This document shows positions 1-25,140 of a stretch of 64,000 bases of DNA, piece by piece. The stretch's first letter is position 1. Every line of letters begins with the position of its first letter. The position numbers and the translations under genes are program-made. The stretch comes from Slackia sp. (GTDB lineage Bacteria; Actinomycetota; Coriobacteriia; Anaerosomatales; Anaerosomataceae). The notes under the pieces are model-generated. The model was not told the DNA's origin. It worked only from the letters and a program-made list of their open reading frames with translations, and did not search any database. The stretch lies in the NCBI GenBank assembly GCA_020725885.1, contig DYEA01000008.1:198119-262118 (forward strand). The letters are read 5' to 3'.

Positions 1-614
1 GTGGTAAGCCTCGATGGCGAGACGAAGTCCGGATCCGATACCTGCGCGTCACGACCGAAGGGCGGCCGCAGCGAAAGCGTCACCACGGTGCCTCGGCCGA
101 GGTTGTCATCGAGCGTGACCGACCCGCCCGAGAAGGCGAGACACTCCCTGGCGATGGGGAGCCCGGAGCCGACGCCGCGGATGACCGACTTCATGGCTGC
201 CGTCGCGGTGGAGAATCCCGGCATCATGGCTCGCTCTTTGTCGCAGATGCCAGGGCCTTGGTCTGAGAAGCGGATGGTGTTGCCGTCATCGGCGATGGTC
301 ACGACCGCCTCGCGGAACTCGGCGTGGATCAGGTTCTCGGCGACCTCGCGCACGACGATGAACGGGATGCCGCCGCCTGCCTGGCGCGCGAGCTCGTACG
401 TCGTGGAAGCGAGCGCGTCGATGAACGCGCGCGGATCGTCCGCGACGACCTCCTCTACGCGAGGTGGAGCCGCGGGGGCGTCGTACACGGCGATGCGGGC
501 GCGCAGCGGGAAGCGGCTTCCCGGCCGCCGATCTTCCGCGGGAGCGACGGTCCGTCCCGCCGGAGGCTGAGCGAGGGCGGCGGCCCCAGAAGCACGTCCG
601 TAGAATCCTCTCAT
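1..614 (-). CDS. GHKL-type ATP-binding protein (C-terminus beyond left edge)
   Basis: The minus strand gives 204 residues that run off the window, so the C-terminus is missing. It carries GHKL (Bergerat) ATPase boxes in order: an N box in VAENLIHAEF, a G1 box SDQGPGI and a G2 region GVGSGLPIAREC followed by GGSVTLDDNLGRGT. No HisKA dimerisation helix precedes them, so it resembles an anti-sigma/RsbW-type or stand-alone ATP-binding regulator more than a sensor kinase. The first 65 or so residues are low in recognisable features. ATG at 614 has GAGAGGGG about seven bases upstream. It is transcribed away from the origin region, the place where dnaA is often found. Its target is unknown. Confidence 0.75.
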   Translation of the reverse strand, partial: MRGFYGRASGAAALAQPPAGRTVAPAEDRRPGSRFPLRARIAVYDAPAAPPRVEEVVADDPRAFIDALASTTYELARQAGGGIPFIVVREVAENLIHAEFREAVVTIADDGNTIRFSDQGPGICDKERAMMPGFSTATAAMKSVIRGVGSGLPIARECLAFSGGSVTLDDNLGRGTVVTLSLRPPFGRDAQVSDPDFVSPSRLT

Positions 615-20577: not shown

Positions 20578-23316
20578 TCACGCCGCCGCGGCTGCGGTCG
20601 TGGCGCGCCGCGACCGGGCCGACAGCCGTTTGCCCACGTCGATGAGCGCCGTGGGCACGAGCGCGGCTGCGGCCACCGCCGCCCAGTCAGTGAGCGACAG
20701 CGGCTGAGTCTTGAACACCACTTGCAGCGGCGGCAGGTACACGACAGCCAGCTGGAGCACCAGCGAACCGGCGAACGCGGCGTCGAGCCAGCGGTTCTGG
20801 AGCGAGTACGCGCTGAAGATGCTCCGGGTCTCGGACCGGAACGAGAACGCGTGCAAAAGTTGCGCGAGCGCCATCGCCGAGAACAGCATCGTCTGGGCGC
20901 GCTCGTGCGAGTGGCCTGGCATGACCCACTCGGCCCACGCGTACATGATGAGCCCGGCCACGGTGATGAGCGCGCCGTGCCACACGATCTGGGCCTGCCG
21001 CTTCGGCGCCAGCACGGACTCGCTCGCGTCGCGCGGCGGGCGGTCCATGACCCGCGGCGACGGCGGGTCGACGCCGAGCGCGAGCGCGGGGAAGCCGTCG
21101 GTGATGAGGTTGATCCACAGGATCTGCAGCGGAAGCAGCGCTGGCCGCTCGGCGAAGAACGTCGTCACGAAGATGATCAGGACCTCGGACATGTTGCACG
21201 ACAGCAGGAACAGGATGAACTTCTTGAGGTTGTCGTACACGGCGCGTCCCATGCGCACGGCTTCGACGATGGTCGCGAAGTTGTCGTCGGCGAGCACCAT
21301 GTCGGCGGCTTCGCGCGACACGTCCGTGCCCACGCGGCCCATCGCCACGCCGATGTCCGCGCGCTTGAGCGCGGGCGCGTCGTTCACGCCGTCGCCGGTC
21401 ATCGCCACTACGTGGCCGCGGCGTTTGAGCGCCTCGACGATGCGCAGCTTATGCGACGGGTCGACGCGCGCGAACACGCGCGTGCGCGCGACGGCCTCGT
21501 AGAGCTCGTCGTCGCTCATGCGCTCGAGCTCGACGCCGGTGAGCACGCCGCTGTCCGCGTCCAGCCCGACCTGCTCCGCGATGGCGCGCGCGGTGAGCGC
21601 GTGGTCGCCCGTCACCATGGCGACCTGGATGCCGGCGCGGCGGCAGGTGGCGATCGCCTCAGCGGCTTCGGGCCGTGGCGGGTCGACCAGGCCGACGATG
21701 CCGACGTACGTGAGGTCGCGCTCGACGGCCGCCGCGTCGTCGGCCGCGGCGTCCTCGCCGAGCTCCCGGTACGCGATCGCGAGGGTGCGGTAGCCGTCTG
21801 CCGCGAGCGCGGCGTTCATGGCGAGGAGGCGTTCGCGCAGAGCGTCTTCGAGCGCCACGCGCTCGCCGCGCACAAGCGCGTGCGAGCACAGCCCGAGCAC
21901 GACGTCGGCGCCGCCTTTGACGTACGCGACGTGACGGCCGTCGACGAGGTGCACCGTCGTCATGCGCTTGCGCTCGGAGTCGAAGGGGATCTCCCCGATT
22001 CGGCGCGGCCGCCGCCGGCCTTTCGCGAGCGCGTCCGCGGCAGCGACGAGCGCGGTCTCGGTGGGGTCGCCCACGAGCGCGCCGTCAGCCGTGAAGTGCG
22101 CGTCGTTGCACGACGCGGCGATCTCGAGCAGCAGGTCGAGGTCCGCGTCGTGCGGAGTGGCGTCGTCGGGCTGCAGGGTCCAGTCCGGGAGGACGTCGAC
22201 GCCGTCTAGCCCGACGACGAGACGCCTGACGGCCATCTCGTTCTTGGTGATCGTGCCGGTCTTGTCCGAGCAGATGAACGTGGTCGAGCCGAGCGTCTCG
22301 ACTGCGTGCAGCTTGCGGACGATGGCGTTGTGCTCGGCCATCTTGCGGACGCCGAGCGACAGCGCGACGGTGACGATCGCCGGAAGCCCTTCCGGGATGG
22401 CGGCCACCGCGAGCGAGATCGCTACGAGCAGCGCGACAGTGAGGCGCGCCCGGAACGCCTCGTGCGTGAGCGCGTCGAGAAGCGACGTCTCCCCGGACGC
22501 GTGGTACGCCTGCCACGCGCCGACGGCGAAGACGATCGTAGCGATCGCGAGCACCAGCACGGCGATGCGCTTCCCCACGCCTTTGAGCTCGCGCTGCAGC
22601 GGCGTCGCCTCGTCTTCCTGCGCAGCGAGGAGGTCGGCGATCCGCCCCATCTGCGTGCGCTGGCCGGTCTCGGTGGCGACGAAGCGTCCGCGGCCCACCG
22701 CGACGGTCGTACCGGCGTACACGAACGTCGACCGGTCCCCGAGCGCGCAGTGCTCGTCGCAGTGCGCGTCGGCGTGCTTCGGGGCCGGCCGGCTCTCGCC
22801 CGTGAGCGACGATTCGTCGATCTTCAGCGCGGCGTCCTCGACGAGGCGGCCGTCGGCGGGGACCTTGTCCCCGGCCTCCAGCAGGACGACGTCGCCAGGC
22901 ACGATGTCTGCGGCCTGGATCTCGCGCTCGACTCCGTCGCGCACCACGGTCGCCGTGGGCGCGGCCATCTGCTTGAGCGCCTCGAGCGCCTTCTCGGCGC
23001 GGTGCTCCTGGACGAAGCCGAGGACGCCGTTCAGGAGCAGGATCGCGGTGATCGCCACGGCTTCGAGCGAATGGCCCTCGAGGACCGAGATCGCCACGGC
23101 CGCCATGAGCACCCAGATCATGAAGTCGTTGAACTGCGCGAGGAACTTGCGCCACAGCGGCACCTGGGGCGGAGGCGCGAGGAGGTTCGGGCCGTGCTCG
23201 GCGAGCCGCCGGGCGGCCTCTTCCTCGCTCAGTCCCCGGTCGGGGTCCGTGCCCAGCGCGGCTGCGACCTCCGCGACCGGCATCACGTGCCACGGCTGTG
23301 GAGCAGGTGCGCTCAT
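20578..23316 (-). CDS. P-type cation-transporting ATPase (type II; Ca2+/Mn2+ class)
   Basis: The 912-residue pump has an N-terminal cation-ATPase domain, LTGES actuator loop, the PEGLP signature of membrane helix 4, the phosphorylation site [35 protein letters not shown], and about ten membrane helices, with the C-terminal cation ATPase domain. This is the SERCA/PMR1-like class that moves Ca2+ or Mn2+. The leader carries a yybP-ykoY manganese riboswitch, so Mn2+ export is the best inference. ATG at 23316 follows GAGGAGG. It is downstream of sdaAA on the same strand. Confidence 0.93.
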
Positions 23317-23330
23317 CGTGCCTCCTCGCT

Positions 23331-23368
23331 CAAAACGAAAGACCTCCGGCGGCTTCGCCGAAGGTCTT
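23331..23368 (-). terminator. Intrinsic terminator within the Mn2+ riboswitch expression platform
   Basis: Read on the minus strand, AAGACCT (23368-23362) pairs with AGGTCTT (23345-23339), with an inner CGGCG/CGCCG stem. TCGTTTTG follows. The 5' arm shares CCTTCG with the 3' strand of riboswitch helix P1, so hairpin and aptamer exclude each other. Confidence 0.75.
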
Positions 23369-23458
23369 GCGTCGCGTGTCGCGTCGGCAGGACCGGGGCG
23401 TCTGCCCGGGATTGTCGGCCTGCCTCCCTCACATGGGCGAGGGCGCTACTCCCCTTCG
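23359..23458 (-). ncRNA. yybP-ykoY-type manganese riboswitch
   Basis: On the minus strand the 5' part is CGAAGG (P1) followed by the family signature GGAGTAGC (23452-23445). The 3' part is GCAAGA followed by CCTTCG (23364-23359), which closes P1. A central segment with AGACGCCCC lies between. This arrangement is that of the yybP-ykoY family, which binds Mn2+ and controls Mn2+ exporters and P-type ATPases. Because P1 and the downstream terminator share CCTTCG, bound Mn2+ should favour read-through into the ATPase gene. The signature includes the TAG stop codon of sdaAA. Confidence 0.85.
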
Positions 23459-24336
23459 TCACGAGCGCGACGATAGCCGTTGTCGAGCTTCGACGCAAGC
23501 GCCCGGGCCGTCGGGGTGGCGGCAAGGCCGCCGAGCGCGGTCTCTCTCAGCGACGGCGGCAGGCTGCGCCCGACCTGCCCCATCGCGCTGACGACCTCGT
23601 CGAGCGGGATCGGGAACTCGAGGCCAGCGAGCGCCATCTCCACGGCGGCGAGCGCGACAGCGACGGCGGTCGCGTTGCGAGCCACGCAGGGCACCTCGAC
23701 GAGCCCTCCGACCGGGTCGCACACGAGCCCGAGGAGCCCTTGCAGCGCGAAGGCGGCGGCGTGGCCGGCTTGCGCAGGCGTGCCGCCCGCGAGCTCCACG
23801 ACGGCAGCCGCGGCCATCGCGGCAGCGGCCCCGGTCTCGGCCTGGCATCCGCCCGCGGCGCCTGAGAGCGTCGCGCGGGCCGCGATCACGCCGCCGACCG
23901 CTCCGGCGGCAGCGAGCGCACGCACCACGGCGTCGCGGGAAGCGCCGAGCCGCTCGGCTGCGGTCAGCAGCACCGCGGGGAGCACGCCGGAGGCGCCGCC
24001 GGTGGGAGCCGCGACCACGCGGCCCATGCAGGCGTTGACCTCCGCGCCCGCAAGCCCGCGGGCGAGGGCGGCCACGAACGCCTCGCCGGCGAGGCGGGGA
24101 GCCGCGCCGGCGAGCCGCCGGCCGTCTCCTCCGACCAGTCCGGAGCGCGAGCGCAGGTCCTCGGAAAGCCCGCGCTCGACCGCAGCCTCCATCACGGCGA
24201 GCGTTTCGGACAGGCGGGTCAGCACCTGCTCCGGCGTCGTGCCGGTCTCCTCGCACTCGAGCGCGACGGCCGCGTCAGCCAGGGAGCCGTGCTCGGCAGC
24301 GGCTGCCAGAAGGCTCTCGAACGATGCGTACGACAC
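23446..24336 (-). CDS. sdaAA: L-serine dehydratase, iron-sulfur dependent, alpha subunit
   Basis: The 296-residue subunit converts L-serine to pyruvate and ammonia together with SdaAB. Recognisable segments are [21 protein letters not shown], the [13 protein letters not shown] cysteine loop, [19 protein letters not shown] and ARNA; the cysteines hold the [4Fe-4S] cluster. GTG at 24336 lies 14 bases after the sdaAB stop. The last codons (GAA GGG GAG TAG) form the conserved 5' segment of the Mn2+ riboswitch that controls the next gene. Confidence 0.94.
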
Positions 24337-24350
24337 GGTGTCGCGCCCCC

Positions 24351-25022
24351 TCAGACCGCCGGGACCGATCGGACTTCGAGCACGCCGTCCACGGCGGCGA
24401 TGCCCGCCAGCACCTCGTCCGGGACCGGCTCGTCGGTTTCGATGAGCATGAGCGCACGCGCGCCGCGGCGTTCGCGCGAGACCTGCATCGAGGCGATGTT
24501 GATGACGTCGGCTGCCAGGCGGGCCGTGACCGCGGCGACGACGCCGGGCTGGTCGTGGTGAACCACCACGAGCGCCGGTAGCTCGCCTGAGAGCTCCACC
24601 GGGAAGTCGTCGAGAAGGGTCACGACGACGTCGCCGCCGCCGAGCGAGGAGCCCTGGACGAGGTGCGAGCGGCCGGCTGCGTCGACGAGCTCCAGGCGGG
24701 CGGTATTGGGGTGCGCGTCGCCGAGGTCGCCCGTGACGAACTCGATCTGGACCCCGCTCTCGCGGGCGATGCTGAGCGCGTCGGGCAAGCGCTCGTCGTC
24801 GGGCGCGAACCCGAGCAACCCCGCGGCGATGGCGCGGTCTGTGCCGTGGCCGCGGCCGGTGGAGGCGAAGGAGCCGTGGAGGGTTATGCGCGCTTGCCGC
24901 GGCGTGCCGCCTGCGATGGCGCGGGCGAGCGCGCCGAGGCGGGCCGCGCCGGCGGTATGGCTCGACGAGGGCCCGATCATCACGGGCCCGATGATGTCGA
25001 ACAGGCTGCGTTGGCGCGGCAT
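24351..25022 (-). CDS. sdaAB: L-serine dehydratase, iron-sulfur dependent, beta subunit
   Basis: The 223-residue subunit starts SLFDIIGPVMIGPSSSHTAGAARLG, the beta-subunit signature. It carries LHGSFASTGRGHGTDRAIAAGLLG, and ends in an ACT-like domain (PGVVAAVTARLAADVINIASMQVSR) that may sense serine. ATG at 25022 has no ribosome-binding site. A TACAAT -10 element ends seven bases upstream, so the mRNA is probably leaderless. It precedes sdaAA in an operon. Confidence 0.94.
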   Translation of the reverse strand: MPRQRSLFDIIGPVMIGPSSSHTAGAARLGALARAIAGGTPRQARITLHGSFASTGRGHGTDRAIAAGLLGFAPDDERLPDALSIARESGVQIEFVTGDLGDAHPNTARLELVDAAGRSHLVQGSSLGGGDVVVTLLDDFPVELSGELPALVVVHHDQPGVVAAVTARLAADVINIASMQVSRERRGARALMLIETDEPVPDEVLAGIAAVDGVLEVRSVPAV

Positions 25023-25028
25023 GTGCTG

Positions 25029-25034
25029 ATTGTA
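25029..25034 (-). promoter_or_regulatory. -10 element of a leaderless sdaAB promoter
   Basis: TACAAT on the minus strand (inside TATACAAT) sits six bases before the sdaAB ATG, so transcription should begin at or next to the start codon. The -35 region is poor. Confidence 0.5.
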
Positions 25035-25140
25035 TACCGAGCGCTCGCGAACGCGGCCGGCAGGTTGCCGCCGTGCTCGCGGCAGCGTATGCTCGTGCGG
25101 CGCTTTTGCGCTGTTCAGGCAAGCGGAAGAAGGGACTCGC

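Follow-up and report, generated by a model that had tools for sequence, protein, structure and literature searches.

The closest described systems are riboswitches of the yybP-ykoY class, among them that of L. lactis yoaB, a gene which reportedly encodes a cation ATPase. As outlined in PMC11087558, the L. lactis element is an ON switch in which Mn2+ stabilises helix P1.1, whose 3' segment otherwise enters a terminator. The solved aptamers of Xanthomonas and L. lactis have ACA48 and UCA41, respectively, and the adenosine there contacts Mn2+ via its N7, according to PMC6754395.

The window analysed here, i.e. the whole stretch of 64,000 nucleotides from Slackia sp., contains such an element on its minus strand, between sdaAA and a cation ATPase gene. 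It resembles the yoaB switch in its L1 motif, in the Mn-contacting adenosine of L3 and in a P1.1 3' strand that otherwise lies in a terminator (PMC11087558; PMC6754395; PMC9190785). In contrast to yoaB and to the RF00080 family, it is very GC-rich, has a low RF00080 score, and has its P1.1 5' strand and L1 translated as the end of the upstream gene. An ACA-type L3 is shared with the aptamer of Xanthomonas oryzae (ACA48UACU there according to PMC6754395, ACAAUCCC here), although the L3 positions after the sensing adenosine differ. We consider it highly likely that this is an ordinary member of the yybP-ykoY class, namely a transcriptional ON Mn2+ riboswitch that controls a P2A cation-exporting ATPase and is started from a promoter within the 3' end of sdaAA. 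The riboswitch class is already known; the arrangement of this member is unusually compact.

Locus layout and detection of the aptamer

On the minus strand, sdaAB, sdaAA, the aptamer, a terminator and the P2A cation ATPase gene follow each other in this order. The beta subunit of L-serine dehydratase is encoded by sdaAB (24351..25022; TIGR00719 with 211 bits, cut-off 161), with a putative ATG start codon at 25022 as read from the sequence, and the iron-sulfur alpha subunit by sdaAA (23446..24336; TIGR00718 with 281 bits, cut-off 243; PF03313). About 10 nt 5' of the sdaAB start codon, a TATACAAT-like element was seen by eye (window 25020-25040, minus strand), and the sda transcript may therefore be nearly leaderless. 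The ATPase gene (20578..23316) is preceded by a Shine-Dalgarno-like GAGGAGG (23321..23327), likewise read from the sequence.

With RF00080, a search of the whole window returned nothing at the gathering score of 45 bits, which is a score threshold and not a structural feature. A local search at the locus gave 13.4 bits (E 0.088), below gathering, and the locus was absent from the matches reported for the whole genome. Across 99 genomes, the window's own included, 17 gave RF00080 matches with E values of up to 1, none of them over the cut-off (0/99); in several of these 17 genomes the match lies directly 5' of the ATPase orthologue. A pattern search requiring GGGGAGTAG and GC[AG]AGAC gave 32 aptamers, both motifs being invariant there by selection. 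Model R2, built from 28 aptamers that all come from relatives outside the window's genus, detects the aptamer (23355..23464) at 81.4 bits (E 1.9e-19), with the next-best place in the window at 13.6 bits, and scores 66.8-78.0 bits in each of the three other members of the genus. It also recovers L215, which is followed by a GDT1 gene, at 62.8 bits (49.1 bits with RF00080, over gathering), as well as L003 and L004, places in the class that RF00080 lists, the latter preceding an MntP gene. Model R1, built from all 32 aptamers with the window included, identified 59 places in 51 of 396 genomes of the class, 50 of which carry the exact GGGGAGTAG.

RF00080 leaves nearly all lineage aptamers of this GC-rich order below gathering, missing a well-conserved group of Mn2+ riboswitches. 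The covariance-model check suggested in the preliminary description had a divided outcome: it failed with RF00080, by itself leaving the matter undecided, and succeeded with the model made only from relatives outside the genus.

In the alignment of the 32 aptamers, a 23-pair structure has 97.4% of its cells paired and double changes in 12 of the 23 pairs. None of 500 shuffles was as high on any measure, while slid versions were 35-50% paired, a control in which the structure is favoured by having been derived from the same alignment. Helix 1, i.e. P1.1 (the 'P1' of the preliminary description, named as in PMC11087558), is paired in 100% of the alignment, with double changes in two pairs and compensatory changes in three sequences. 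Covariation backs P1.1, P2, P3 and P3.1 of the four-way junction, and P4 comes from the single-sequence fold only; all five helices form in the minimum free energy (MFE) structure of the aptamer alone. The 5' strand of P1.1 is CGAAGG (23453..23458), and the L1 motif GGGGAGUAG, closed by P1/P1.1, is present at 23454-23446. L3, of the [A/U]CA form, is ACA at 23415-23413, and A23413 is, by alignment and comparison with PMC6754395, the match of the Mn2+-contacting A48/A41 of the solved structures. The aptamer is predicted to bind Mn2+. A yybP-ykoY riboswitch of the Mn2+ class before a cation-pump gene, as had been proposed, is borne out by the R2 score, the covariation and the retained L1 and L3 core.

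Terminator, promoter-like element and switching

The CGAAGG strand (23458-23453) can pair with CCTTCG at 23364-23359, the 3' strand of P1.1. According to the folds and the terminator scan, these same nucleotides belong to the 5' arm of an intrinsic terminator (23332..23368) with a stem of 13 pairs (23368-23339) and a T-rich tail. This is the sole terminator-like hairpin within 23200-23700 (shuffle mean 0.0); its hairpin part at 23367-23325 has a folding energy of -24.4 kcal/mol (z -4.84), and the terminator is kept in all four members of the genus. When the RNA is cut at the P1.1 3' strand, P1.1 pairs have folding probabilities of 0.90-1.00. With the terminator included, the free fold reaches -67.1 kcal/mol versus -56.0 kcal/mol with P1.1 forced. 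The preliminary description had placed CCTTCG in the terminator's 5' arm, and both its positions and its base-level statements proved right in the hairpin scan and the sequence. Its view that aptamer helix and terminator are mutually exclusive agrees with the common strand and with the folding energies.

The direction of switching, with Mn2+ turning expression ON, is suggested by the match of this arrangement to the L. lactis ON switch. RNA polymerase would start at the presumed promoter near the end of sdaAA and transcribe the aptamer. At high Mn2+, the docked aptamer would hold P1.1 and keep CCUUCG from the terminator, allowing the pump gene to be transcribed; at low Mn2+, CCUUCG would enter the terminator and transcription would stop. 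The terminator would probably also end sdaAB-sdaAA transcripts arriving from upstream.

The candidate promoter, TTGCGT-17-TATCGT, lies within sdaAA, with a -35-like element at 23498-23493 and a -10-like element at 23475-23470. Of 53 aptamers, 52 have a TAnnnT hexamer in the interval 24 to 6 nt 5' of the motif; in each of 22 control windows further upstream, only 0-5 have one. TTGnnn-16..18-TAnnnT at the promoter position, hence a clear -35 element, is found in only 21/53 aptamers (4/2822 control windows), all these counts coming from related sequences and not from independent events. They cover 53 of the 59 places, L208, L209, L210, L212, L213 and L214 having been dropped as weak matches or for lacking the motif, although the motif is present in L209, which belongs to a distant genus. 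In the window's genus, TTGnnn-17-TAnnnT is present in 4/4 members. A generic sigma-70 scan reported no promoter, TATCGT included. From the -10-like element, transcription is predicted to start at about 23463-23461, and transcripts from there would hold the aptamer and no translatable sdaAA. Given this presumed promoter just 5' of the aptamer, the main transcript probably has its 5' end at the aptamer, in which case it would never serve as sdaAA mRNA.

Sister genera (e.g. L156 and L177) share the aptamer, the downstream ATPase and the -10-like element. Their aptamers differ in having a UCA-type L3 and mostly no terminator, and in several of them CCUUC could base-pair with the Shine-Dalgarno sequence. 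Fifty places were scored, one of them belonging to neither type; a terminator was found in 2/25 of the UCA type versus 18/24 of the ACA type. In the UCA-type leaders of sister genera (L156-L169, L173, L177), the MFE structure pairs the P1.1 CCUUC with the Shine-Dalgarno sequence in 10 of 16. The predicted folds of UCA-type leaders suggest that, within one family, control has shifted from the transcriptional to the translational level. The sister-genus L3, GUCAUCAC, was also considered as a new specificity variant; this was dropped, as UCA also occupies that position in the L. lactis aptamer, according to PMC6754395.

Downstream pump and the metal sensed

The aptamer precedes a predicted P2A ATPase. 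Based on its Pfam P-type ATPase domains, its nearest solved sequences (LMCA1 and ATP2C1) and TIGR01522 (PMR1-type; 728 bits, below the cut-off of 798), the protein is probably a P2A-type cation pump of the Ca2+/Mn2+ pump-like kind, its score below the PMR1 equivalog cut-off calling for caution about the metal. Five proteins encoded behind related aptamers were scanned and matched GDT1 (twice), TerC, MntP and Na_Ca_ex. TerC-like genes follow L200 (scanned) and L209 (by eye), and a GDT1 gene follows L194. The aptamers L196, L203, L206 and L210 precede exchangers that look like the Na_Ca_ex family, and the one of these four that was scanned matched PF01699; Na_Ca_ex-family exchangers are a possible addition to the genes usually found behind Mn2+ riboswitches.

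The low RF00080 score, the resemblance of the pump to Ca2+ pumps and the existence of a copy without the L1 motif (L208 in genome G016) would all fit an aptamer whose fold is real but which senses another metal, or has decayed into a non-functional relative. This reading is highly improbable, since the covariation, the retained L1 and L3 core and the conservation of terminator and promoter-like element speak against it, as do the relatives that precede Mn2+-type exporters. The sub-gathering RF00080 score is also what one would expect if GC-rich hairpins next to a terminator resembled a riboswitch by chance. The likelihood of this is practically nil: the E value of the independent-set model and its distance from the next-best place in the window led us to reject it, and the aptamer is conserved in all three other members of the genus. 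A functional Mn2+ riboswitch remains the preferred reading.

Overlap with the sdaAA stop codon and gene order

The sdaAA gene ends with GAA GGG GAG TAG, which is also the start of the aptamer: the invariant GGGGAGTAG of L1 (23446..23454) includes the stop codon TAG at 23448-23446. That the yybP-ykoY signature doubles as the end of sdaAA had been noticed from the letters alone, and sequence, alignment and R2 match all confirm it. In this genus, the -10 element, P1.1 and L1 encode the C-terminal residues of SdaAA (GYR...DEGE). A riboswitch can hence be partly translated without loss of its core, with promoter-like element, switch helix and metal-binding loop doubling as an enzyme's C-terminus. 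Third-position identity in the last 45 nt of sdaAA is 0.73-0.77, versus 0.38-0.52 just upstream, while other sdaAA windows reach up to 0.78.

Among the 59 R1 places, 14 have a co-directional sdaAA whose stop falls within the motif or ends fewer than 100 nt 5' of it; this may be an undercount, as some contigs end close by. This adjacency spans four families of the order, the window's own counted. The sdaAA stop coincides with the UAG of the motif in 4/4 members of the window's genus (G000-G003) and in none of the other ten places (G006, G008, G010, G016, G017, G023, G029, G054, G055, G063), where it lies 15-92 nt 5' of the motif. In G020 the gap from sdaAA to the motif is 1363 nt, and in G048 sdaAA is on the opposite strand. 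Since sister genera have the same order with the stop further upstream, the gene order is older than the overlap, which by these comparisons is restricted to one genus and was probably derived within it. In that genus, the sdaAA reading frame would have run into the promoter and aptamer, with the invariant UAG now serving as its stop. Of the three reading frames through the motif, one meets a stop. For a gene that runs into the aptamer, the odds of ending at precisely this point should therefore be about one in three, and such a coincidence would not be rare. The overlap is probably mere compact packing.

Excess Mn2+ harms iron-sulfur cluster formation, as stated in PMC9603457, and the SdaAA family is named iron-sulfur dependent by NCBIfam. 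For this reason, the old adjacency of an iron-sulfur-type serine dehydratase and a Mn2+-controlled pump is at most suggestive of a functional link.

The preliminary description had further suggested that translation of serine dehydratase may be linked to expression of the pump. In such a translation-gated riboswitch, on transcripts from the sda promoter, the ribosome at UAG would cover P1.1 and L1, block folding and favour the terminator, so that sdaAA translation lowers pump expression. The stop codon inside the aptamer throughout the genus and the position of sdaAA directly upstream in 14/59 places would fit, and so would the folding: when pairing of the first 26 nt was forbidden to mimic a terminating ribosome, the terminator was kept in the predicted fold of all 8 aptamers folded. 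A terminating ribosome could, on these models, disturb aptamer folding on read-through transcripts. However, the promoter-like element, if active, would uncouple most transcripts of the aptamer from sdaAA, and the P1.1 3' strand is complete only about 87 nt after the stop, which probably gives the RNA time to refold once the ribosome is released. With the overlap found in one genus only and the ease of a chance stop within the motif, gating by translation is very unlikely. An extended version, in which the switch reads two signals (metal via the aptamer, sdaAA translation via the ribosome at the invariant UAG), with ribosome traffic resetting it to OFF and the terminator also ending the sda transcript, is likewise very unlikely. 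The proposed link thus finds no support in an aptamer with its own promoter-like element (52/53) and with the stop 15-92 nt upstream in sister genera, and the ordinary Mn2+ riboswitch with compactly packed neighbours is retained.

At some other places, too, the UAG terminates a long open frame, e.g. one of 505 codons in L174. A Pfam scan of seven of eleven translated UAG-ending frames (L217 included, L159 and L188 outside the scan) gave no match, and those of L178 and L189 overlie sdaAA, whose own frame stops upstream. These frames are probably shadow frames such as GC-rich DNA produces, and independent recurrence of the overlap, looked for in this way, was set aside. A search of the phylum gave seven further places, none shown with a gene ending at UAG and one with an open frame (L217). 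A literature search, with most subscription papers outside its scope, returned no paper title or start of an abstract describing a Mn2+ riboswitch that contains the stop codon of an upstream gene. In G016, the sdaAA match is split in two and L208, the aptamer 5' of the ATPase gene, has lost GGGGAGTAG, as if both were decaying; the same genome carries a second aptamer with the motif elsewhere (L197).
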